A DNA stretch of 64,000 nt, from the NCBI GenBank assembly GCA_902520335.1, contig CABYNS010000003.1, positions 1 through 64,000 of the forward strand, written 5' to 3'. Below, piece by piece: positions 15,812-37,668 of this stretch. The position numbers were made by a program, and so were the translations under genes. Numbering within the stretch: position 1 is the stretch's first letter; the number at the start of each line of letters is the position of its first letter. The notes under the pieces were generated by a model. It searched no databases. It was not told the origin of the DNA and worked only from the letters and a program-made list of their open reading frames with translations. The DNA comes from an uncultured Pelagibacteraceae bacterium. GTDB lineage: Bacteria > Pseudomonadota > Alphaproteobacteria > Pelagibacterales > Pelagibacteraceae.

Positions 15812-17917
15812 ATGAACTCAACAGCAGAAACTATTTTATTATATACAATTGTAGCAGGTTTATTATCTATTGTTTATGGATTTTTAACTGGAAAAAATAT
15901 TCTTAATTCAAGTGCAGGAAATTCAAAAATGCAAGACATTGCTTCAGCAATTCAAATTGGAGCAAAAGCATATCTTGCAAGACAATATAAAACTATAGCT
16001 ATTGTTGGTGTTGTAGTTTTAGTTATTGTTAGTATTGCTTTTAGTCCACTTGTTGGTCTAGGTTATTTAATTGGTGCTGCCTTATCTGGAATTGCTGGCT
16101 ATGTTGGTATGCTAGTTTCTGTAGAAGCAAATGTCAGAACTGCAGAAGCATCGAGAAAAGGTTTAGCAGAGGGACTTTCTGTTGCTTTCAAATCTGGTGC
16201 TGTTACAGGTATGTTAGTTGCAGGTTTAGCCCTATTAGCAATTGCAGTTTATTATTTTTTATTACTAAAATTTGAAGTTGATGAGAGAGAGATAGTTAAT
16301 GCGCTTGTTGCATTAGGGTTTGGTGCATCTTTAATTTCAATTTTTGCAAGATTAGGTGGTGGAATTTTTACAAAAGGTGCTGATGTTGGTGCCGATCTAG
16401 TTGGTAAAGTAGAAGCAGGTATACCTGAAGATGATCCAAGAAACCCTGCAGTAATTGCAGATAATGTTGGAGATAATGTTGGAGACTGTGCTGGTATGGC
16501 TGCAGATTTATTTGAAACTTATGCTGTTACTATTGTTGCAACAATGGTCCTTTCATCCATTTTTTTCATTGGCGATTTAAATATGATGGTTTATCCTTTA
16601 ACAATTGGTGCTGCATGTTTAATTACATCAATTATTGGAACTTTCTTTGTAAAACTTGGAAAAAATAACAATGTAATGAATGCTTTATATAAAGGTTTTA
16701 TAGTATCTGCAGTAGCTTCATTGTTAATTCTTTGGCCGGTTACTGATCATGTAATTGGTTTTTCAAATGAATATACTGTAAATGACAAAACTTTTAATGG
16801 TAAGGATTTATATTATTGTGGAGTAATTGGTCTTGTAATTACAGGCTTATTAATATGGATCACTGAATATTATACTGGAACTGGTTATAGACCAGTTAAA
16901 TCAGTTGCTTTATCATCCACAACAGGACATGGAACAAACGTAATTCAAGGATTAGCAGTATCTATGGAAGCAACTGCAATTCCAGCCATAATTATCGTTG
17001 CAGGTATTTTAATTACTAATTCTATTGCTGGACTTTTTGGAATTGCTATTGCTGTCACAACAATGTTGGCATTAGCTGGAATGGTTGTAGCACTAGATGC
17101 GTATGGACCAGTAACAGACAATGCAGGTGGTATTGCTGAAATGTCTAATCTTGATAAAAAAGTAAGAAAAACGACTGACACATTAGATGCTGTAGGAAAT
17201 ACAACTAAAGCTGTAACTAAAGGATATGCAATTGGTTCAGCTGGCTTAGGTGCATTAGTTTTATTTGCTGCTTATACAGAAGATATAAAACACTTCTCAA
17301 AAGAAGCAGGATCTGCATTAGAAGGAATTGTAGTAACTTTTGATTTATCAAATCCTTATGTTGTAGTTGGATTATTAATTGGTGGTATGTTGCCATATTT
17401 ATTTGGATCAATGGGAATGCAGGCTGTAGGTAGAGCAGGTGGTGCTGTAGTTGTCGAAGTAAGAAGACAATTTAAAAAATACCCTGGTATCATGAAAAGA
17501 AAACAAAAACCTGATTATGCTAAATTAGTCGATTTATTAACAGTTGCAGCTATCAAGGAAATGATCATTCCATCATTACTACCTGTACTTTCACCCGTGG
17601 TATTATATTTCATAATTCTTTCAATTGGTGGCCAGGTTGCTGCGCTTGCTTCTGTAGGAGCTATGCTTTTAGGTGTTATTATAACTGGACTTTTTGTTGC
17701 AGTATCAATGACTGCTGGTGGTGGCGCATGGGATAATGCAAAAAAATATATAGAAGATGGAAATCATGGAGGTAAAGGCTCAGAGGCTCATAAGGCAGCT
17801 GTAACAGGAGATACTGTTGGAGACCCTTATAAAGATACTGCTGGACCTGCTGTAAATCCTATGATTAAGATCACTAACATAGTAGCGTTGCTATTGTTAG
17901 CGGTTATAGCTGGATAA
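15812..17917 (+). CDS. hppA: Membrane-bound H+-translocating pyrophosphatase (K+-independent type)
   Basis: Couples hydrolysis of pyrophosphate to proton pumping across the inner membrane. About 16 membrane segments and the acidic substrate motifs [19 protein letters not shown] and the C-terminal [15 protein letters not shown] are present. At about 17194-17211 the sequence GNTTKA has the lysine that marks the K+-independent subfamily (alanine in the K+-dependent one). The ATG at 15812 precedes the first membrane segment; a TTG 48 bp earlier is less likely. 701 aa. Confidence 0.95.
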
Positions 17918-17918
17918 A

Positions 17919-18389
17919 TTAATTACCTGTTATCGTCCCTCTTTTTTTTCCTAGAGGGTCATTAATTTTTGCTCTTACTCCTGATAGAGTCTTATAAATA
18001 AATGATCTTTTTCCAACGTCTACATTTGTAATTTTTTTTGAGAATTCCATCTTATTAATATCCTCTTTATTGAAAAATTTTTTATCTACCAACATACCTC
18101 TATTATTAACTTCCAATAACAAAACATTATTAGAAATTAATTTTTTTTTCCCAAGTTTGTGTAGTTTTGAGTTGGATGTTTTTCTTTCTAAATAAACTAG
18201 TATTTTATTATTAAAATAACTTGTTGATGAAGGTGGTCCTAGTAATTTATTAATTTCGTTAATATTTGATTTATAAATAAATAATTCTTTACTTTTAATC
18301 TCAAGGTTGTGAATTCCATGGTGATTCACAATTTTATTCAATTTACAACTAGTTAAAAATATTGTTAGAATAATTAATAAAATTTTCAT
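17919..18389 (-). CDS. SmpA/OmlA (BamE)-family outer-membrane lipoprotein
   Basis: Probable outer-membrane assembly accessory lipoprotein. The N-terminus is a lipoprotein signal with lipobox LTSC (Cys15). A segment resembling the BamE fold follows, containing INEINKLLGPPSSTSYF and the ILVYLERK strand. 156 aa. In Alphaproteobacteria a gene of this family often lies divergent from the bc1 chaperone gene, as here, with a 3-bp gap between the two starts. The assignment rests on motif pattern plus context. Confidence 0.75.
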   Translation of the reverse strand: MKILLIILTIFLTSCKLNKIVNHHGIHNLEIKSKELFIYKSNINEINKLLGPPSSTSYFNNKILVYLERKTSNSKLHKLGKKKLISNNVLLLEVNNRGMLVDKKFFNKEDINKMEFSKKITNVDVGKRSFIYKTLSGVRAKINDPLGKKRGTITGN

Positions 18390-28109: not shown

Positions 28110-28961
28110 ATGAAGGCTATAACTTTCAATCTTTTAGCGTGGGTAATGCTTCCTATTATGGATGGATTTGCAAAATATTTGAGTGCAGATCTTCCTGTTT
28201 TGCAAATTACATGGGCGAGGTATTTTTTTACAGTTGCATTTACTCTTCCGATTATGTTTTTCTTTTTTAGAAAAAATCTTGTTTGGACAGATAAACCAAA
28301 ATTACAATTTATAAGGGGTCTAATTCTTTTAACAGCTAATATCTGTTTTTTTTATTCAATTTCAGTAATTTCTTTAGCAAAAGCATTAACTTTAGCTTTT
28401 GTTGCACCTTTAATTGTTACAGCTTTCTCTCCAATTTTTTTGGGAGAAAAGGTCGGTTTTAGAAGATGGTCTGCTGTAATTATTGGATTTATAGGTTCAT
28501 TAGTAGTTATAAGACCCGGGATTTTAGAAATTAACTTTGCAAGTATAGCTGCTCTTGGTACTGGAATAATGTATGGATTTTATTTAATTATTACCCGTAA
28601 ATTAAGTACTTCAGACAACCCTTTATTAACTTTGTTATTAACTGGTATAGTAGGGGCCATAATAGTTTCCACAATAATGCCATTTGTTTGGGTTACGCCT
28701 ACTTTAAATCAGTGGTCTATGATGGCTGCGATTGGGATATTTGCCTGTATCGGTCATTTATTTTTAATATTATCACTTAAATATGCTGATGCCTCTAAAT
28801 TAGCCCCATTTAGCTATTTTGAGATTATTACCAACATTATCATAGGCTACTACTTCTTTAGTGATTTTCCAGATAATTGGACTTTCTTAGGATTATTTAT
28901 CATTGTATTAAGTGGCATCTATATTTCGAGAAGAGAGAACTTGATTAAAAAGATTAAATAA
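28110..28961 (+). CDS. EamA-family (DMT superfamily) permease
   Basis: Drug/metabolite transporter of 283 aa with ten predicted membrane segments and the two-repeat EamA layout. WARYFFTVAFTLPIMF, LAKALTLAFVAPLIVTAFSP and LGEKVGFRRWSAVIIGFIGSL are typical of the first repeat; LILSLKYADASKLAPFSYFEI of the second. Substrate cannot be told from sequence. Last gene before a 460-bp gene-free stretch. Confidence 0.88.
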   Translation: MKAITFNLLAWVMLPIMDGFAKYLSADLPVLQITWARYFFTVAFTLPIMFFFFRKNLVWTDKPKLQFIRGLILLTANICFFYSISVISLAKALTLAFVAPLIVTAFSPIFLGEKVGFRRWSAVIIGFIGSLVVIRPGILEINFASIAALGTGIMYGFYLIITRKLSTSDNPLLTLLLTGIVGAIIVSTIMPFVWVTPTLNQWSMMAAIGIFACIGHLFLILSLKYADASKLAPFSYFEIITNIIIGYYFFSDFPDNWTFLGLFIIVLSGIYISRRENLIKKIK

Positions 28962-29212
28962 TAGGTATTATTTATTTACTAATACTTAAAGTATTACATT
29001 AATTGTAATATGTAAACTATTGTAATTATTAGATATTTATTAAATATAAATTTTCTAAAAAACTTAATTGAAATTGATTTTATTTAATTAAAAGAAAATT
29101 GTTTTAGATTAATTAAGTAAAATTTTTAACAAAATTTGCAGATATCAAATTATCCTTTAAAATCAAGACTTTTTACACATCAGAATATATAAAATCATGA
29201 ATAAATAGGGTG

Positions 29213-29300
29213 GTCTAAAAGCGTTGATATAGTTGATTAGTAGAGCGATGCACTAACCGAATATACCATTTAAACGTCCATATAGGGGTCTATTTTAGGC
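29213..29300 (+). ncRNA. Candidate structured RNA (unidentified)
   Basis: A closing stem GTCTAAAA (29213-29220) pairs with TTTTAGGC (29293-29300) over 8 bp including one G-U. It encloses an imperfect 42-nt hairpin (29226-29267): GATATAGTT/GAATATACC stacked on GATTAGT/ACTAACC with a GC-GAT-GC tip. The two wobble pairs favour the plus strand as template sense. A -10-like TATAAA lies at 29188, and a hairpin at 29388 could end the transcript. No known RNA family was recognised. Folding by eye only. Confidence 0.35.
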
Positions 29301-29387
29301 ATAGGTTAATATTTAGTACAACTGAAGGGTGAATTATCCAATTTGATGGAAAAATTAGCAAAAACATCAAAAAACTTTGGTTTTATT

Positions 29388-29410
29388 AGCTTTTTTACAT
29401 TAAAAAAGCT
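29388..29410. terminator. A/T-rich hairpin, possible bidirectional terminator
   Basis: AGCTTTTTT (29388-29396) is perfectly complementary to AAAAAAGCT (29402-29410) with a five-base loop. It lies 12 bp past the stop of the minus-strand alkyltransferase gene and downstream of the candidate RNA, so it could serve both. The stem is weak (two G-C pairs), so termination is an inference. Confidence 0.4.
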
Positions 29411-29421
29411 TTAAAATAGGG

Positions 29422-29691
29422 CTAAATCACTACTTTTTCAGATCTAAGAAGTCTAAGCTTTTGCTTAATTCCACCTCTTCCTGAGTAGCCTCCAAGAGCT
29501 CCATCAGACCTGATTACCCTATGACAAGGTATTTTTGGAGCATATGGGTTTTTAGCACAAGCATTAGCCACAGCACGAGCTGATTTAGGACTTTTTATGC
29601 CAATAGCTACCTCTTTATAGGTTTTTACCTTACCTTTTGGTATTGTTTTAAGGTATTTCCAAACTTTTAATTGAAACTTTGTTCCTTTCAT
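29422..29691 (-). CDS. Methylated-DNA-[protein]-cysteine S-methyltransferase domain protein
   Basis: Small protein (89 aa) made only of the DNA-binding/active-site domain of O6-alkylguanine-DNA alkyltransferases. The acceptor cysteine is present in IPCHRVIRSDGALGGYSG, and FQLKVWKYLKTIPKGKVKTY matches the recognition helix region. The usual N-terminal ribonuclease-like domain is absent. With PCHR intact, direct repair is plausible, in contrast to alkyltransferase-like proteins that lack the cysteine. It follows a 58-aa membrane protein gene by six bases. Confidence 0.85.
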   Translation of the reverse strand: MKGTKFQLKVWKYLKTIPKGKVKTYKEVAIGIKSPKSARAVANACAKNPYAPKIPCHRVIRSDGALGGYSGRGGIKQKLRLLRSEKVVI

Positions 29692-29893: not shown

Positions 29894-29922
29894 TTGACAT
29901 TAAAAATCACCTATTATATAAC
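29894..29922 (+). promoter_or_regulatory. Promoter of the tyrosine recombinase gene
   Basis: TTGACA (perfect -35) and TATAAC (-10) are separated by 17 bases. Transcription would begin inside the inverted repeat at 29923-29947, just before the recombinase ATG at 29954. It is among the closest matches to the sigma-70 consensus in the window. Confidence 0.65.
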
Positions 29923-29947
29923 TTCCGATAATTAATGGTTATCGGAA
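29923..29947. repeat. Perfect 9-bp inverted repeat at the recombinase start
   Basis: TTCCGATAA (29923-29931) and TTATCGGAA (29939-29947) are exact reverse complements around a 7-base spacer. It spans the predicted transcription start and ends six bases before the recombinase ATG. It could be an operator (autoregulation), a translation-blocking hairpin, or a recombinase binding site; sequence alone does not decide. Confidence 0.7.
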
Positions 29948-29953
29948 AAAAAT

Positions 29954-30868
29954 ATGAATGAACTAATAACAGACGTTAAAAGCCTTGAATTAGAGACTTT
30001 AAAGAATCTAAAAAATTCTAAAGCAAACAATACATTAAGAGCTTATAAATCTGATTTTAGAGATTTTTCAAGTTTCTGTACAAAAAATGGCTTTTCATCA
30101 ATGCCAAGTGATCCAAAAGTTTTAGCTTTATACCTAACTCATTTAAGCTCTTTTAGTAAATTTAGTACTTTAAAACGAAGATTAGCCTCAATAAAAGTTA
30201 TTCATAGATTAAGAGGGCACTATATTGATACAAAACATCCAATCATCGCTGAAAATTTGATGGGAATAAAGAGAAGAATGGGAGTTAAGCAAATAGCAAA
30301 AAAACCGTTATTAATCAATAATTTAAAATTAATTATTAATGTAATAAATGAAGAAAAAAATGATTATAAAAAATATCAAAATCGTGCTTTATTACTTATA
30401 GGATTTGCAGGTGGGTTCAGAAGGTCAGAATTAGTATCAATTGAATATGAGGATATTGATTTTGTTAATGAAGGAGTAAAAATATTGGTAAAAAGGTCAA
30501 AGACAGACCAAACTGGCCTTGGTATGACTAAGGCAATACCCTACTTCGAAAATAAAATCTATTGCCCTGTTGAATCTTTAAAAGAATGGATTGTACATGC
30601 AAATATTAAAAAAGGTAAAATATTCAATATATCTGACAAAACAGTAGCTTTAACAATACAAAAATATGCATCATTAGCTGGGTTGGACAAAACAAAATAC
30701 GCAGGTCATAGTTTAAGATCTGGATTTGCAACATCAACAGCTGAAATTGGTGCAGATGAAAGAAGTATTATGGCAATGACTGGTCATAAAACAACTCAAA
30801 TGGTAAGAAGATATATACAAGAAGCAAATCTATTTAAAAATAATGCACTAAATAAAATCAAAATTTAA
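29954..30868 (+). CDS. Tyrosine recombinase/site-specific integrase
   Basis: 304-aa integrase. An N-terminal SAM-like core-binding domain (about residues 8-105, TLRAYKSDFRDFSSFC) is followed by the catalytic domain with the full set: Arg in GGFRRSEL, Lys in KRSKTD, HSLR, the second His in GHKT and Tyr in RRYIQ. It does not match the XerC/XerD pattern closely, so chromosome-dimer resolution is less likely than an element-encoded or inversion function. It has its own promoter, and its last 11 bp overlap the end of the glycan operon on the other strand. Confidence 0.9.
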   Translation: MNELITDVKSLELETLKNLKNSKANNTLRAYKSDFRDFSSFCTKNGFSSMPSDPKVLALYLTHLSSFSKFSTLKRRLASIKVIHRLRGHYIDTKHPIIAENLMGIKRRMGVKQIAKKPLLINNLKLIINVINEEKNDYKKYQNRALLLIGFAGGFRRSELVSIEYEDIDFVNEGVKILVKRSKTDQTGLGMTKAIPYFENKIYCPVESLKEWIVHANIKKGKIFNISDKTVALTIQKYASLAGLDKTKYAGHSLRSGFATSTAEIGADERSIMAMTGHKTTQMVRRYIQEANLFKNNALNKIKI

Positions 30869-31607
30869 CATTTAAAAGATTAGAGTTATCTCTTAAAAAA
30901 ACACAATCAAATTGTAATAAATAGGAGTCCTTGTCACCTAGTCTTTTTAAATCATATATATCATATAAAACAAACCTTTTATTTTTCATGTAATGGATAA
31001 TATCGTAAAACAATGGTGCGTCTTTATTATATTTGTGAAGAGAAACTTCAAGAATAATAACTTCAAAATTATTTATTAACTCCCCAAGACCAGTAATAAT
31101 TTTTAATTCTGAACCTTGAACATCAAGTTTAATTAAATTAGATTTAGTATTCTTAATTTCGCTGGGTAATTCATTGTTAAGAAGAGATGATTTTATTTTC
31201 TTTATTTCTCTAGAATAATTAGTCTGCTCTTCAAAAATTGATGAGCCTGAAGCCATTGAGAAAAAATCATATTCTTTTTCGTCGTCAGAAAGTAATTTAA
31301 TTCTATAATCTACATTTTTGTAATTGAATTTAAGTTTATCTAAGTATTTAATATTTTTATTATCTGCATCGAAAAGAATATATTTAGAATTAGGAAAAAA
31401 TTTTAATAACTTATTTGTCCAAATACCCCTAAAGCAACCGACATCTACAACATATTCAGGTTCAAAATTTTTATTTTTTAAAGATGTAATAATAATATCT
31501 AAATTTGTAACTTGATTGTGATTTTGAAACTTATGATTTATTTTAAAAGAAATTGGTAATAATTTTTGTAAAACAATTATGAATTTAGATAATATTTTAC
31601 TAATCAT
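30858..31607 (-). CDS. FkbM-family methyltransferase (first of two)
   Basis: S-adenosylmethionine-dependent methyltransferase, 249 aa. The motif I region VVDVGCFRGIWTNKLL, the acidic strand end YILFDAD, and LIKLDVQGSELKII (typical FkbM motif) are clear. The likely role is O-methylation of a sugar, as expected from its place as last gene of a glycosyltransferase operon. It overlaps the upstream glycosyltransferase by 8 bp and the convergent recombinase by 11 bp. Confidence 0.85.
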   Translation of the reverse strand: MISKILSKFIIVLQKLLPISFKINHKFQNHNQVTNLDIIITSLKNKNFEPEYVVDVGCFRGIWTNKLLKFFPNSKYILFDADNKNIKYLDKLKFNYKNVDYRIKLLSDDEKEYDFFSMASGSSIFEEQTNYSREIKKIKSSLLNNELPSEIKNTKSNLIKLDVQGSELKIITGLGELINNFEVIILEVSLHKYNKDAPLFYDIIHYMKNKRFVLYDIYDLKRLGDKDSYLLQFDCVFLRDNSNLLNVKF

Positions 31608-32616
31608 TAGACTGTTTATTAATCAGTTTTAACCATTTACCAAATATTAAATTTAAATAATATTTACGTGAAAATTTGACACAATTATTAATTATATTCT
31701 TCCTAGATTTTAAATTTGTACTAGCAATTTGTATTATACGTTTTGGAATGTCATTATAGTTTAATAATTTAAAACTATTTTTCTTATTAGATATCTCAGC
31801 TACAGCAGTATGTCCAAAGGTGATGATCGGCATTCCACATGCATAAGACTCAATAGCATTCAGACAAAAAGTTTCATCATATCCTAAGCAGATCATAGCC
31901 ATTGATTTTTTGTAATAACTAATTAAAATTTTTTTTTTTACTCGACCTTTATAAAAAATATTAAATTTAGATAGTTTTTTTAAGTTATATCTTTTTATAA
32001 GTGATTTATTAACACCAAATATAAACAGTTTAAATTTCTTATATTTTGGATGTATTTCATTTATCCAAATATCAATCACTTCAGATAAGCCTTTATTTCT
32101 TTGAACAGACCAAATAAAATAAGGTTTTCTGTTAAACTCAGGTTTTAAATCATAAAAAATTGGATCTAAAAAATTTGGTATAACAATTTTTTTTTTAAAG
32201 TTATAAATATTAGTTGTTATTTTCATAAGGTAATCACTTACAAAAATCACAGAAACTTTGTTTTTAATGATTGGAAAGAATTTCTTTTTTCTAATAGCTT
32301 TTTCTATGGTTAGTTTATTGTGTAGCCATAAAAAATTTTTCGAGTATTTTGAATAGTTAAATATAGTTGGATCATTTGAACTAATTATTTTGTCAAATTT
32401 ATAATCTAATTTTTTGTTGTTTAATTTATTTATAGGTATGTTTATTAGATTTCCTTTTTTGATCTCTTTTTTGCATTTAGTTGCAAGATATATTTTATGT
32501 TTAGTATTTAATAAATATTTTGTTAGCTCTATGTTTAAACTTTCTATACCTCCTAATGATTTTATATTTTTTGATTTTAAACTAAATTCAAAAGGACAGT
32601 AGAATAAAATATTCAT
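31600..32616 (-). CDS. Glycosyltransferase, GT4-like (GT-B fold)
   Basis: 338 aa. The N-terminal half contains the acceptor domain start FYCPFEFSLKSKNIKSLGGIE; the C-terminal half has the donor-binding region with ETFCLNAIESYACGMPIITFG, the E-x7-E type motif of retaining GT4 enzymes. Very rich in lysine, asparagine and isoleucine. Sugar donor and acceptor unknown. Overlaps of 8 and 4 bp with its neighbours indicate a single operon. Confidence 0.82.
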   Translation of the reverse strand: MNILFYCPFEFSLKSKNIKSLGGIESLNIELTKYLLNTKHKIYLATKCKKEIKKGNLINIPINKLNNKKLDYKFDKIISSNDPTIFNYSKYSKNFLWLHNKLTIEKAIRKKKFFPIIKNKVSVIFVSDYLMKITTNIYNFKKKIVIPNFLDPIFYDLKPEFNRKPYFIWSVQRNKGLSEVIDIWINEIHPKYKKFKLFIFGVNKSLIKRYNLKKLSKFNIFYKGRVKKKILISYYKKSMAMICLGYDETFCLNAIESYACGMPIITFGHTAVAEISNKKNSFKLLNYNDIPKRIIQIASTNLKSRKNIINNCVKFSRKYYLNLIFGKWLKLINKQSND

Positions 32617-33494
32617 TTAGTAGCTTTTGAAATAATCTTATAATAAAATAAGGCTACTTTATCTTTAAATAAATCAAGATAAAAAGTAATTCCTTTTTCT
32701 GGTTCAGTCAGATTCTCATTATGAATATAATGCGATTTTAAATAATATTTCTTAAAAAATTTTATGGAAAATCCCCATTTTAATAAAAAAATTTTATTAG
32801 CTCTTGATCCTTGATTCTTTTTAAATTCTTTATTATTTTTTTTTCTTATTGTCACTGATCCAAAATGATAAACTCTTGATTGACTAAGGCATTTGAATAT
32901 TCTAACTCCCTCATTCCACAATTTTAGATTTAAATCTGGATCTGAACCTGCACCAGGTGAGAATTCTTCACTAAACCCCCCTACTTTAACCCATAAATCC
33001 TTATGAATTAGATGTGGAGCCCAAGTAGAACCCTCAAAGTCTGTGTGTTCAAGTTTTTTGTAATTATCTAAAAGATATTTCTCATCGAAATTATTAATTT
33101 TATCTCCAGCGTTTAAATTTAAATGACCTTTAAGCTTTGGGTCTCCATTAATCATTATACTGGATAAATAAAATTTTTTTGTTTTTAGTTCTTTAACTTT
33201 TTCTATTAGAATTTGGTCCCAGTTTGGTAAAAAATACATATCATCATGAGAATATAAAATTAGATCAAATCGACTTAATTTTGATATTCTATTACAAGCT
33301 GAACATAAACCTATATTTTGATTAGAGTGTGTATATTTTATATTTATATCTTCTAAATATTGTTTTGTACCATCTTTACCCTCATTTATATGTACTAAAA
33401 TTTCATTTTTATAAAAAGAATTCTTGTTAATACTTTCTATACATTTTTTTAAATATGATAAATTATTGTAAGTTGGTATTATAATTGAAATCAT
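32613..33494 (-). CDS. Glycosyltransferase family 2
   Basis: 293 aa, GT-A fold. N-terminal ISIIIPTYNNLSYLKKCIESI is the GT2 nucleotide-sugar-binding start, YSHDDMYFLPNWD supplies the DxD-type metal motif, and GGFSEEFSPGAGSDPDLNLKL is the acceptor/catalytic-base region. No membrane segments, so it is a cytoplasmic transferase building a glycan chain. Overlaps its neighbours by 4 bp on each side. Confidence 0.88.
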   Translation of the reverse strand: MISIIIPTYNNLSYLKKCIESINKNSFYKNEILVHINEGKDGTKQYLEDINIKYTHSNQNIGLCSACNRISKLSRFDLILYSHDDMYFLPNWDQILIEKVKELKTKKFYLSSIMINGDPKLKGHLNLNAGDKINNFDEKYLLDNYKKLEHTDFEGSTWAPHLIHKDLWVKVGGFSEEFSPGAGSDPDLNLKLWNEGVRIFKCLSQSRVYHFGSVTIRKKNNKEFKKNQGSRANKIFLLKWGFSIKFFKKYYLKSHYIHNENLTEPEKGITFYLDLFKDKVALFYYKIISKATK

Positions 33495-34240
33495 AACATG
33501 TCAGAAGTTTTAGAGACAAAAACTAAATCATCATGTATCCAATTGGCTAATTTATATTTTTTACTTATCATAAATTTGTAAATATCAGATTTTATAATAT
33601 CTTTAATATTATGTTGGTAAAATTCTTTAATATTGGGCTTGATAAATTCGATTGATATTATTTTAGGTCTATATTTTTTTAAATTAAGGCCCTTTAAAAC
33701 ATTCAATTCATTTCCCTCAACATCAATTGATAGAAAATCAATATGTTTAACTTTAAATTTTGAACTCTCAATGATATTTTCTAGAGTATCTATTTTTATT
33801 TTCTTAATTGATTTTGCTCCTTTTCCCCTTGATTTAACAATTGTGTTTTTTGCTGCTCTATTATGAAAAAAATAAAGGTTTGATTGACCTTTTTTGTTTG
33901 ATAAAGCAATTTCTATATTATTGTCATTTGGTCTGAAATAATTAAACATATCAATAGAATTAAAATCGAGGTCAACATTGATACCTCTCCACCCTTTTTT
34001 GTAAAGAACGTATGTATTATTATTTATAAATGGGTGATGACAACCTACATCTATATAAATTCCTTTTTCTTTACCCTTCTTTAAGATATCTTTAACTAAT
34101 AAATCAACACCCCAGTTTGAGTATAATAACCTTGGTTTAAATTTAAACTTAAGAAATTGGAAAAGAAAATATATTAATTTTGGTAAGTTTTTTTTTTCAG
34201 AATATAAATATTTCTTTTTAATTTTTTCTTCAATTTTCAT
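33491..34240 (-). CDS. FkbM-family methyltransferase (second of two)
   Basis: 249 aa. YIDVGCHHPFINNNTY is methyltransferase motif I, INVDLD the acidic end of the second strand, and FLSIDVEGNELNVLKGL the FkbM signature. The first ~40 residues are basic and lack recognised motifs. Its sequence differs clearly from the other FkbM gene of the operon, so the two probably methylate different positions rather than being a recent duplication. Its ATG shares a base with the stop of the large glycosyltransferase. Confidence 0.86.
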   Translation of the reverse strand: MKIEEKIKKKYLYSEKKNLPKLIYFLFQFLKFKFKPRLLYSNWGVDLLVKDILKKGKEKGIYIDVGCHHPFINNNTYVLYKKGWRGINVDLDFNSIDMFNYFRPNDNNIEIALSNKKGQSNLYFFHNRAAKNTIVKSRGKGAKSIKKIKIDTLENIIESSKFKVKHIDFLSIDVEGNELNVLKGLNLKKYRPKIISIEFIKPNIKEFYQHNIKDIIKSDIYKFMISKKYKLANWIHDDLVFVSKTSDML

Positions 34241-36363
34241 TAAAATAATTTTGAATATTTACCAAGTGATTTATCAACTATATATTTTGTTATTTTTAGC
34301 TCATTGAATAGTTTGAAATATTTTTTTTTACCGTTTTTAGCTATTTTTATTCTTGAGATTGAATTTTTTTTATAAAATTTAATTTTTTCAGAAAGATCAT
34401 TAATATTTTCATAGAGAATTACTTCATTATTATTAAAGAAATCACCAAGATGTGTTTTTTTATCAACAAACGTTAAAAGTCCATTTCCTATTAAGGAGGC
34501 TATTCTATTACTTGAATAGTACTTTGTAGGAAGTCCTCTACTTAGGTTTAAACCCATTTTTGAATTTACCAAAGCTTGGTAGAAATTATTCCCCCAAATA
34601 GGCTCTTTATTTTTAAAACCATAAAAATCACAATTTATACCTTTTAGTTTCTCAGTTAATTTATTTAAGAAAATTATTCTATTATCTATTTTGTCTGTCT
34701 TTAACGAAGCTCTATTTACACCGTGACTCATAGCATAAAACAAATCCATTGATGGATTCAATTTATATACATCGAAACATTCAATGTTTTTGTCAACTGG
34801 TATGAAAAAAAAATTAACATTTTTAATTTTGAATTTTTGTTTTTTAAGAATATCAGGGTCAGTTGTAATAAAATTATGATCAACTATATCACTATACATT
34901 GAAATATTTTGTAGATTTTTTTTTGAATAATCTAAAGATGGCATAATAGGATCCTCATTCCATTGAGAAATTATCAAATTTTTATTTTGTTCTCTAATTG
35001 TTTTAATAGTATTTTGTTCTATGTTTTTGGTGTGACCAAATAAAAATAAATCAGGATTATAATTTTTAAAAGTATCAATTAAATATTCTTGAAATTTTAG
35101 ATTTGAATTTAGTGTAAGAAATCTGTTTTGCCGTATAAAATCTCTATCACTTATTTCAAGAACGTCATGTCCATTTCTAATCAAGCCATTTGTAAATTTT
35201 TTACCAATAGAAATATTGTAAAGTCTATGATTCAGCTTTTGACCAGTATTATATAAATTAATTATTCTAAGCTTTTTTTTTATGTAATTAAGATTAAAAT
35301 TGTGTATTAACTTCGATCTAATTTCATCGATAATTTTAGTGTTTGATTTAATAGTATGTTTTACCTTTTTAAAACCATTAAATTGTAATCTTTTTCTAAA
35401 CTTTTGATTAATAATGAGTTTTTTAATCGATTTGTATAAAGTTTCTTCGTTTAAGTTTTTAAGTATTAATGAATAATTAGTAGTTTCAGGCAACCCTCCT
35501 CTATTAGAGATAATTGTAGCGCATGCTCTTGAGGAAGACTCCAGTGCAGTTCTTCCAAAAGGCTCTTCCCATCTAGAGGGAACAACTGCTATTTCTGACT
35601 TATCTAAAAATTTTAAAACATTTCGATGTTCTAAAAATCCTAACTCATAATGTCTTGGATGATTTATATAGGGTCTGTCTCTATCTTCATCACCTATGGA
35701 ATATGCTTTCCAATTTTTATGTTCATCAAGAATTCTAAGTATAGCACCCTTATAAATATCATAACCTTTTGATTTGTTAAGTTTACCAACAAAAACAATA
35801 TTTTTATTTTTCTTATGAATTTGCTTACTTTTGTGAATGCTTGGATAGATAACTTCAGTTTTGTCAATTAACTTTTTATCTAAATTACTAAAAAATCTTT
35901 TTTGCGTCCATTGACTTACAAAAATAATTTTATCAACGTTATTAAGTAAATTTAATCTTTCTGATACAGTTTTAGATCCTTTCATGCTTAATGGATCATT
36001 GTGAAAATATAGAATAAATTTTGTTTTAATTTCTTTATTAATAATGTTAAAAATTTGTGGTCTATTATGAATTTCAATAATTTCAAAATCTTTATTTTTA
36101 ATCTTTTTTATAAAATTTTGACAGTATTCTTTAGTTGTACTAATAAATTTTGATTTTTTGTGTTGTATTGAAATATTAATATAATTTCTAGTAAGATAGT
36201 CCTTGCTCTGAGTATTTCCAAATATAAAGTTTTCTCTATTGTATTTGGAGTATTTAAAAAAATCACAAACCCATATGGCGGCTGCTTGGGCGCTAGAATA
36301 TGTATAATTTTCTTTATACGGTAAAATAGTAGCTATCTTAATTTTTTGATTCAATGAAATCAT
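34240..36363 (-). CDS. Two-domain glycosyltransferase (GT4 fused to CgeB-like domain)
   Basis: 707 aa. The N-terminal half (about residues 10-345) is a GT4 glycosyltransferase with NIVFVGKLNKSKGYDI and VPSRWEEPFGRTALESSS. The second half (about 355-707) is another GT-B unit resembling CgeB/Glyco_trans_1_2 proteins, with FLFGHTKNIEQNT, LNLSRGLPTKYYSSNRIASL and ITF-like donor-site sequence (GNGLLTFVDKKT). The protein could add two sugars in sequence. It overlaps the GIY-YIG gene by 26 bp. Confidence 0.8.
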   Translation of the reverse strand: MISLNQKIKIATILPYKENYTYSSAQAAAIWVCDFFKYSKYNRENFIFGNTQSKDYLTRNYINISIQHKKSKFISTTKEYCQNFIKKIKNKDFEIIEIHNRPQIFNIINKEIKTKFILYFHNDPLSMKGSKTVSERLNLLNNVDKIIFVSQWTQKRFFSNLDKKLIDKTEVIYPSIHKSKQIHKKNKNIVFVGKLNKSKGYDIYKGAILRILDEHKNWKAYSIGDEDRDRPYINHPRHYELGFLEHRNVLKFLDKSEIAVVPSRWEEPFGRTALESSSRACATIISNRGGLPETTNYSLILKNLNEETLYKSIKKLIINQKFRKRLQFNGFKKVKHTIKSNTKIIDEIRSKLIHNFNLNYIKKKLRIINLYNTGQKLNHRLYNISIGKKFTNGLIRNGHDVLEISDRDFIRQNRFLTLNSNLKFQEYLIDTFKNYNPDLFLFGHTKNIEQNTIKTIREQNKNLIISQWNEDPIMPSLDYSKKNLQNISMYSDIVDHNFITTDPDILKKQKFKIKNVNFFFIPVDKNIECFDVYKLNPSMDLFYAMSHGVNRASLKTDKIDNRIIFLNKLTEKLKGINCDFYGFKNKEPIWGNNFYQALVNSKMGLNLSRGLPTKYYSSNRIASLIGNGLLTFVDKKTHLGDFFNNNEVILYENINDLSEKIKFYKKNSISRIKIAKNGKKKYFKLFNELKITKYIVDKSLGKYSKLF

Positions 36364-36601
36364 TTAATAGTTTTAATCTTTTTTTTTTGTCTTTTTTAAG
36401 ACTATATTCATAAGATAAAGCATCATTTTTACTTATAAATCTTTTCTTATAAATAACTATCCACTTGTATCCTTTGGTTGATTTTGCTCCTTTATTTGAG
36501 TTATGTTTCCTTAATCTTTCTGAAATATTTTTAGTAAATCCCACATATGTTTTTGAGGTTTTCCTATCTATGTTTTTTAACATATAAACAAAATAGGTCA
36601 T
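36338..36601 (-). CDS. Small GIY-YIG domain nuclease-like protein
   Basis: 87-aa single-domain protein. YFVYMLKN (GIY strand), KTYVGFTKNISERLRKHN (YIG strand and catalytic arginine) and YEYSLKKDKK (metal-binding glutamate helix) match the UPF0213/YhbQ-type GIY-YIG family. Function of these solo domains is not settled; DNA repair or element-associated cleavage are both possible. It lies between the 3' end of tRNA-Glu and the glycan operon and is translationally linked to the latter. Confidence 0.85.
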   Translation of the reverse strand: MTYFVYMLKNIDRKTSKTYVGFTKNISERLRKHNSNKGAKSTKGYKWIVIYKKRFISKNDALSYEYSLKKDKKKRLKLLNDFIESKN

Positions 36602-36607
36602 AATTAA

Positions 36608-36682
36608 TGGCGGTCCCTAGGGGAATCGAACCCCTCTTTCGAGGATGAAAACCACGTGTCCTAACCGATAGACGAAGGGACC
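36608..36682 (-). tRNA. tRNA-Glu (anticodon UUC)
   Basis: Cloverleaf on the minus strand: acceptor GGTCCCT/AGGGACC, T arm AGGGG-TTCGATT-CCCCT, encoded CCA, and anticodon loop TTTTCAT with TTC at 34-36. The anticodon stem CGTGG/CCTCG contains a U-U mismatch in its middle pair. The 3' end of the tRNA faces the glycan/recombinase region, the usual geometry for integration at a tRNA gene. Confidence 0.93.
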
Positions 36683-36717: not shown

Positions 36718-37668
36718 TCAAGTTTTTATAGTATCTTCACTTAATACAATTTTACACATATTCGAGCCTTTGTGTGTAACCAAAGTTTCTGTAATGTACT
36801 TATTATCTTTAATTTTTATACCTTCCACTAAGTCTCCATTTGTTATCCCAGTAGCACAAAATATTGAGTCGCCTTTCACAATTTCTTTTAAATTATATTT
36901 CTTTGTTAAATCAACAATACCCATTTGTTTAGCTCGATAGATATTTTTATCATTATCAAAAATAAACCTACCTTGAAATTTGCATCCATAGGCATCAATA
37001 GCAGATGCTGCCAAAACACCTTCAGGACCACCTCCAATACCTAGAAAAAAATCAACATTGTATTTTTTATTTGTTACCATTAAGGCGCCAGATACATCTC
37101 CATCAGAGATTAATTTCATTTTTACATTCATATTTTGAAGTTTATTAATCATTTTTTTATGTCTTGGTCGATCCAACAAACAAACTGTGACATCTTTAAT
37201 ATCCTTATTCAAAGCATCAGCAATATTCTTAACATTTCTTTCTAATGAAAAATCTAAATCTGTTGCATCATCAGGTACTTTATTTGAGACTGCAAGTTTT
37301 TCCATATAAGTTTCAGGAGCATTCAAAAGATTACCTTTTTCAGCAATAGATATCATAGACAAAGCACCTGGTAAATTTTTTGCAACAAAATTTGTTCCTT
37401 CAACTGGATCTACTGCAATATCAACTTCTAAATTTCCTCCTTTACCCAATTTTTCTCCAATATAAAGCATTGGCGCTTCATCTAGCTCTCCTTCCCCAAT
37501 AACAATTTTACCACTTATCTCAATTTTATTTATTTCATTCCTCATAGAATCTGTTGCAGCTTTATCAGCTTTTTCCTTATCATTTTTACCTACAAACTTA
37601 TGACAAGAAATAGCTGCAGTGGAGGTTACTTTTATAATCTTATCTATTAAATTTTTATCTAAGGGCAC
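36718..37668 (-). CDS. glpX: Fructose-1,6-bisphosphatase, class II (GlpX)
   Basis: Removes the C1 phosphate of fructose 1,6-bisphosphate in gluconeogenesis. IVIGEGELDEAPMLYIGEKLG and IAVDPVEGTNFVAKNLPGALS hold the metal and phosphate ligands; LLDRPRHKKMI and GIGGGPEGVLAASA are further class II motifs. 316 aa, normal. It shares a base pair junction with the SbmA-like gene upstream (start and stop coincide at 37668). Confidence 0.95.
   Translation of the reverse strand: MPLDKNLIDKIIKVTSTAAISCHKFVGKNDKEKADKAATDSMRNEINKIEISGKIVIGEGELDEAPMLYIGEKLGKGGNLEVDIAVDPVEGTNFVAKNLPGALSMISIAEKGNLLNAPETYMEKLAVSNKVPDDATDLDFSLERNVKNIADALNKDIKDVTVCLLDRPRHKKMINKLQNMNVKMKLISDGDVSGALMVTNKKYNVDFFLGIGGGPEGVLAASAIDAYGCKFQGRFIFDNDKNIYRAKQMGIVDLTKKYNLKEIVKGDSIFCATGITNGDLVEGIKIKDNKYITETLVTHKGSNMCKIVLSEDTIKT

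Follow-up and report, generated by a model that had tools for sequence, protein, structure and literature searches.

The 64-kb stretch of uncultured Pelagibacteraceae DNA analysed here (contig CABYNS010000003.1; hereafter the window, with coordinates counted from its first letter) carries the gene for a single Xer-like tyrosine recombinase of 304 amino acids, here called REC (29954-30868, + strand), and directly upstream of it a dif-like palindrome (29923-29947, + strand). The two very probably act together as an Xer/dif module with a single recombinase, located at the replication terminus in SAR11 (Pelagibacteraceae). This reading was adopted because the palindromic site lies near the terminus and is linked to one recombinase gene, the features by which single-recombinase systems are recognised in the parts of PMC2731167 and PMC5357621 that were consulted. 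A preliminary description of the window had treated REC as the integrase of a glycan island entered at the 3' end of a tRNA-Glu gene. REC is a conserved gene and not an island gene; its glycan neighbours, flanked by core genes, make up a hypervariable block of their own.

The site consists of TTCCGATAA, the 7-bp centre TTAATGG, and TTATCGGAA, with arms of the type designated class A below. It is a perfect inverted repeat, six bases 5' of the REC start codon and directly after TTGACA-17 bp-TATAAC (29894-29922, + strand), which was read off the sequence as the likely promoter of REC. With up to three mismatches, 0.06 matches were expected in the window and two were found, and the same genome holds four other near-palindromic places at two mismatches. 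The palindrome was present directly upstream of REC in 40/40 loci read. The core GATAATTAATKGTTATC occurred exactly once in 84 of 121 genomes of the genus (reversed control, 0), and all 84 positions adjoined REC in a by-eye comparison with the REC positions. The site was also present in 11/11 single-contig genomes from four genera, with one changed core base in G127. At least 119 core stretches were found in named genome contigs; 104 of the 119 listed adjoined a REC-like gene, 9 were cut by the locus end, and the remaining 6 (L213, L222, L237, L239, L288, and L309) were something else. In Candidatus Pelagibacter ubique HTCC9565 (L216), REC lies 12 bp from the core. The canonical dif pattern CATAA-N6-TTATGTTAAA was found in 0 of 26 genomes, sister family included, and was therefore uninformative. 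As the palindrome abuts a promoter-like sequence, it might be a mere operator for repression of REC, by REC itself or by another regulator, with REC acting elsewhere. We consider this very unlikely, given that the centre TTAATKG was conserved as well as the inner arms in the genus genomes, that the site lies at the terminus, that its arm class tracks the REC clade, and that the same site occurs in contigs of pelagiphages that yielded no REC/Xer-like recombinase.

REC was intact, and both Pfam domains were found (PF00589, Phage_integrase, E 2.6e-20; PF02899, N-terminal SAM-like), in agreement with the complete tyrosine recombinase described earlier. Matches to REC at E ≤ 0.001 were obtained in 87 of the 121 genus genomes, which are mostly incomplete, and in 17 of the 20 that are ≥90% complete; among the 87, G056 gave no more than a weak match, and the matches in G001, G081, and G083 were partial. 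REC was found in all 11 single-contig genomes examined (four genera) and matched in 216 of 247 genomes of an order-wide sample, with strong matches in all six genera (g1-g6) of the window's family and weak ones in the sister family (E 1e-3 to 1e-13, about 46 rows). Of the 31 order genomes without a match, the 20 that were listed are split into 7 to 70 contigs each. A PF00589 search returned mostly one tyrosine recombinase per genome, namely REC, with others in ten genus genomes.

Using the ParB gene (parB) as the origin marker, REC was located at 0.460-0.498 of the chromosome from that gene in 11/11 single-contig genomes. Cumulative GC skew across the window reaches its maximum in the 30-31 kb bin; neither this maximum nor the palindrome at 29923-29947 had appeared in the preliminary description. 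GC skew also changes sign near REC in G012 and G082, where sampling was coarse and the signal noisy.

In 12/12 family genomes, searches with the XerD model TIGR02225 brought up nothing but REC, at 65-82 bits, or more distant recombinases with lower scores (G121, G125, and G082); no XerC/XerD-grade protein was found in these 12 genomes, 11 of them single-contig. With the same model, 14/14 sister-family genomes have an XerD-grade protein (307-325 bits, just below the cut-off of 329.6), and a second protein, scoring 244-254 bits, is complete in 11 of the 14 and present as a fragment in one further genome. FtsK_gamma was present in 12/12 family genomes and in 3/4 sister-family genomes. REC itself scored below the NCBIfam cut-offs for XerD (75.3 of 329.6 bits), XerC (71.2 of 335.15 bits), XerS (52.9 of 267 bits), and XerA (70.9 of 220 bits); no XerH model was among the family models listed for this scoring. 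Residues R156, K183, H252, R255, H278, and Y287 were invariant in an 18-row alignment, and the R/K/HxxR/H/Y positions align with XerD, at residues that we take to be its catalytic ones. An AlphaFold model of REC was of moderate quality (mean predicted local distance difference test [pLDDT] 73.5; predicted template modelling score [pTM] 0.50). When this model was compared with the PDB using Foldseek, the best 50 rows were headed by Cre, followed by XerA, XerH, IntI, and XerD at TM scores of 0.3-0.4, which confirms, for a predicted structure, the tyrosine recombinase fold only. REC was filed as a variant akin to XerS/difSL and XerH/difH that scores as none of the modelled families.

In the proposed mechanism, REC monomers would bind both inverted arms and carry out recombination between two site copies. 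This recombination would resolve chromosome dimers at division, probably controlled by FtsK, which has been retained along with its gamma domain. Binding of REC at the site would also repress REC's own promoter. The module would have taken the place of XerC/XerD/dif once the lineage had separated from the sister family, and with recombinase and site travelling jointly, strains would exchange the whole module, in its classes A and B.

Several points weigh against this reading. Recombination at the site is something that we infer, no event having been observed. The centre of the site is 7 bp rather than the 6 of classical dif, the palindrome overlaps the promoter region and could be an operator only, and REC falls far under the XerC, XerD, XerS, and XerA cut-offs. 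The exact core was absent from two genomes with REC, G028 and G081 (in G081, REC ends at a contig end). In the order, 15 of 149 genomes that are ≥90% complete gave no match at E ≤ 0.001, and two family members, G056 and G262, gave weak matches only. Sampling of GC skew was piecemeal, and since the 11 single-contig genomes are related, the chance figure calculated for their REC positions is not strictly a probability. The family is also mobile, as some homologues outside the order have genes for a transposase, a resolvase, or a Fic protein beside them.

The block beside REC consists of six minus-strand genes running from 36601 to 30858, with neighbours overlapping by 1-26 bp. In the direction of reading these encode a GIY-YIG domain protein, the usual neighbour of tRNA-Glu (36338-36601, PF01541); a fused double glycosyltransferase of 707 amino acids with two glycosyltransferase domains, a relative of which usually adjoins GIY-YIG (34240-36363, PF00534 and PF13524); and, as variable genes, an FkbM-type methyltransferase (33491-34240, PF05050), a family 2 glycosyltransferase (32613-33494, PF00535), a group 1 (GT4-like) glycosyltransferase (31600-32616, PF00534), and another FkbM-type methyltransferase (30858-31607, PF05050), which overlaps the end of REC by 11 bp. 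The right edge of the block is tRNA-Glu(ttc) (36608-36682, - strand), with its 3' end towards the block. The core flanks are an EamA permease on the left (28110-28961, + strand, PF00892) and glpX on the right (36718-37668, - strand, PF03320), and an MGMT/Ogt-like gene is the conserved left neighbour of the module (29422-29691, - strand, PF01035). The overlapping six-gene operon, its 11-bp overlap with REC, and the orientation of the tRNA were thus as first described. At a loose threshold, the tRNA-Glu was the sole Rfam match above its cut-off. Between the EamA and MGMT-like genes, about 0.4 kb (29000-29420) has no long open reading frame (ORF) and no Rfam match above cut-off. Repeat families listed for 28.9-38 kb look like AT-rich chance repeats and were set aside. 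Elsewhere in the window, positions 16001-18000 have a G+C content of 0.34-0.37 and a strong GC skew, with neighbouring bins at about 0.23-0.29.

A tyrosine recombinase, a tRNA gene whose 3' end points towards the block, and variable glycan genes between them are what an island integrase entering at that 3' end would leave. This origin of REC is nevertheless extremely unlikely. Within the window, the terminal 20 bp of tRNA-Glu are not repeated at up to three mismatches, which bears out the earlier statement that no att repeat was found and leaves the tRNA 3' end without a duplicate. The linked palindrome stands at REC's own start and not at the tRNA, REC is conserved, mostly in one fixed place, at the terminus, and the 13 matches to REC in phage records are only 23-31% identical to it. 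What stands of the proposed recombinase-glycan island is the hypervariable set of glycan genes between core genes; on this evidence, the role of REC as its integrase and that of the tRNA as its target do not. When relatives were compared between EamA and glpX, REC stayed while the glycan cargo changed. The loci in this cargo comparison had been chosen for holding REC, and presence or absence rests on the genus, order, and XerD-model searches.

The order REC - variable genes - GIY-YIG - tRNA-Glu, in the standard direction, was found in 29 of the 40 REC loci (GIY-YIG and tRNA swapped in L038); the remaining loci lie on short contigs, are rearranged, or differ in their right flank. Across the 29 loci, the distance from REC to the tRNA is 1.3-8.2 kb, and 96 proteins from these loci and the window (ORFs of ≥100 amino acids) fell into 37 clusters at 40% identity. 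REC, GIY-YIG, tRNA-Glu, and mostly a related fused glycosyltransferase are constant, and the glycan content changes. Two flank variants were also seen: in L046, L052, and L068 the interval between tRNA-Glu and glpX, beyond the tRNA as seen from the block, holds an inserted gene of about 560 amino acids, and the tRNA-Glu/glpX flank is replaced in L042, L044, and L053 by a common gene run starting with ORFs of about 320 and 701 amino acids. REC-bearing segments are inverted or rearranged relative to the flanking core genes in L033, L034, L035, L056, and L064, and also in L037 and L066. The end points differ, lying at the AEC/hom boundary, at the AEC/EamA boundary, or inside the glycan block, and L034 and L035 share one arrangement. 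These rearranged loci could be terminus-centred inversions or single-cell amplification chimeras. Hypervariable neighbours and a rearranged order around REC in 7/40 loci would also suit an enzyme that reshuffles the adjacent glycan genes, as a DNA-inversion switch or by gene capture. Such a role for REC is very unlikely, as each genome has one exact copy of the core and hence no partner site was found (diverged copies were not sought in relatives), and the rearranged loci differ in end points and may have either of the origins just given.

Two classes of the module were distinguished among the 40 loci. Class A sites (TTCC-GATAA...; n = 14) accompany REC proteins 68-93% identical to that of the window, and class B sites (typically ACTAAT-GATAA...; n = 26) accompany proteins 60-65% identical to it. 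On the REC tree (41 rows, window included), A and B are the two sides of one branch with support 100, so that arm class and REC are perfectly coupled in the 41 loci. On a tree of five flanking core genes, from which rows holding fewer than three of the five were dropped (35/41 rows kept), class changes 8 times, at least 6 of them forced by well-supported branches; the core genes flank the locus and may recombine themselves, which could inflate this count. Class changes on the core tree were no better than with shuffled labels (92 and 74 of 500 shuffles were as low). The window is class A, and its nearest core relatives, L067 (96% identical in core genes) and L063, are class B. Since the classes split once on the REC tree but are scattered on the core tree, REC and its site have been exchanged together between strains, repeatedly.

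The core was also found in 29 viral stretches. In 19 of them the arms are complete, 16 agreeing with class A (17-18 of 18 positions) and 3 with class B (22 of 22); each of the remaining 10 seems to be a chance occurrence or a half site. By reading, the 19 fall into about nine sequence groups, and HTVC010P-type pelagiphages are among them; L173 is 65-69% identical to pelagiphages in the rows listed, HTVC010P first, across the terminase-to-capsid block. Related, weaker sites were found in four cultured pelagiphages, namely HTVC100P (30/33, E 2e-3), HTVC106P (E 0.2), HTVC035P (two sites, E 1 and 10), and HTVC024P (two adjacent sites), and no convincing site was found in HTVC010P itself. The BLAST search in phages with a 31-nt site query gave 66 records, mostly chance rows, of which the Pelagibacter rows were taken further. 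By eye, an A-like and a B-like element apparently lie side by side in HTVC100P, HTVC035P, and HTVC106P. A search of the six-frame translations of the 29 viral stretches (partial genomes) and five cultured phages recovered its positive controls but no REC/Xer-like recombinase, and no integrase was among the annotated products of the five cultured phage genomes. The one match to REC in a viral contig (L171) was partial, 61% over residues 252-292.

A tentative proposal, to which we give a minor share of probability, is that integrase-less pelagiphages (the HTVC010P type and kin) exploit SAR11 Xer at dif, that SAR11 answers by swapping the module between incompatible A and B specificities, and that A-like and B-like phage sites side by side serve either host. 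No prophage was found at the site: the L185 terminase had a match in 1 of 399 SAR11 genomes, at 46% identity, and in the 40 loci read the ORFs between MGMT and REC, which were not searched for phage families, are of 157 amino acids or fewer. Both observations count against phage use of the site for integration. Resolution of phage-genome multimers and a decoy function are possible alternative roles of the phage sites. In one SAR11 genome, the same phage terminase occurs twice, inverted, on one contig (L325 and L326; G389:C20 1083-2276 and 12182-13375), an arrangement suggestive of an amplification artefact. Integration in the HTVC010P-type group may already be described by Du et al. (2021), who treat these pelagiphages, or by Morris et al. 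(2020), who treat SAR11 lysogens. If the proposal of phage exploitation were true, a chromosome-maintenance system would be an exchangeable two-allele locus under phage pressure, adjoining variable glycan genes that may set phage adsorption.

Homologues were sought in 289 genomes across the class, of which 19 match REC at E ≤ 1e-20, three of them family members. The other 16 gave 18 loci with 29-41% identity to REC. A similar palindrome, with 9-bp arms, ATAA/TTAT on the inside, and no more than one mismatch, was found in 8 of the 18. In seven loci it immediately precedes the recombinase gene and in one it immediately follows it; the other ten had none. The count was 9 palindromes in the 18 loci plus L237, and none in 20 Markov controls. 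In L237 (1311-4859), from an Acetobacteraceae metagenome-assembled genome, a recombinase with 30% identity begins some 20 bp away from the same core and lies between the chromosome segregation genes scpB and scpA. The module probably descends from a broader family of alphaproteobacterial recombinases that have a palindrome linked to them, and a mobile or plasmid origin followed by recruitment is plausible; descent would run in that direction. In five distant homologues (L329, L332, L333, L334, and L345), an ORF of 361-384 amino acids (about 236-1394) with no Pfam match lies directly upstream of recombinase and palindrome.

SAR11 bacteria are among the most abundant organisms in the sea. Within the open-access literature searched, the SAR11 recombinase/site module was not in print. 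The consulted part of PMC2731167 (2009) states that Pelagibacter ubique has no dif/Xer, with XerC, XerD, XerH, and XerS missing, and reads this as genome fitting; the module contradicts that statement on P. ubique, as far as the part consulted goes. The evidence says that the SAR11 XerC/XerD pair was replaced and not simply lost. The result is also a warning against taking every SAR11 recombinase located next to a tRNA and variable genes for the mark of a mobile island. In the parts consulted, PMC2217521 (Wilhelm et al.) lists the hypervariable regions of HTCC1062, with a 'probable phage integrase' within HVR2 (hypervariable region 2), and PMC12416821 interprets the presence of tyrosine recombinases and tRNA genes close to a SAR11 operon as indicating transfer. 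Re-examination may be worthwhile for some cases like those of PMC12416821.

Among known systems, the phages that use dif-like sites and the host Xer, integrative mobile elements exploiting Xer (IMEX; CTXphi), resemble some pelagiphages, which have one or two host-like sites and no REC/Xer-like recombinase found (29 viral loci and five cultured genomes); they differ in that no integrated pelagiphage copy was found at the host site, and integrative use is unproven. Archaeal XerA/dif is like REC in having a single recombinase and a terminus site, and XerA structures are among the REC fold matches, whereas the REC score fell short of the XerA cut-off and XerA is described, in the source text consulted, as apparently FtsK-independent, with SAR11 keeping FtsK-gamma. 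XerC/XerD/dif shares the fold and catalytic residues with REC, and the inner ATAA...TTAT of the arms is as in what we take to be the E. coli dif sequence; the REC module differs in its one recombinase, near-symmetric arms, linked site, 7-bp centre, and scores (71-75 bits vs 330-335). Closest in organisation are XerH/difH (Helicobacter and Campylobacter) and XerS/difSL (Streptococcus and Lactococcus), which, according to the consulted parts of PMC2731167 and PMC5357621, likewise have one recombinase, no XerC/XerD, and a terminus palindrome linked to the gene. REC is shorter (304 amino acids vs 354-362 in the XerH/XerS systems, as given in the parts consulted), it scores far under the XerS cut-off, its site differs in arms and centre from the difH sequences printed there, and the SAR11 module has two allele classes exchanged between strains. 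The SAR11 module would be an independent origin of a single-recombinase Xer system, for which the sister family, keeping an XerD-grade protein and mostly a second one, offers a comparison.

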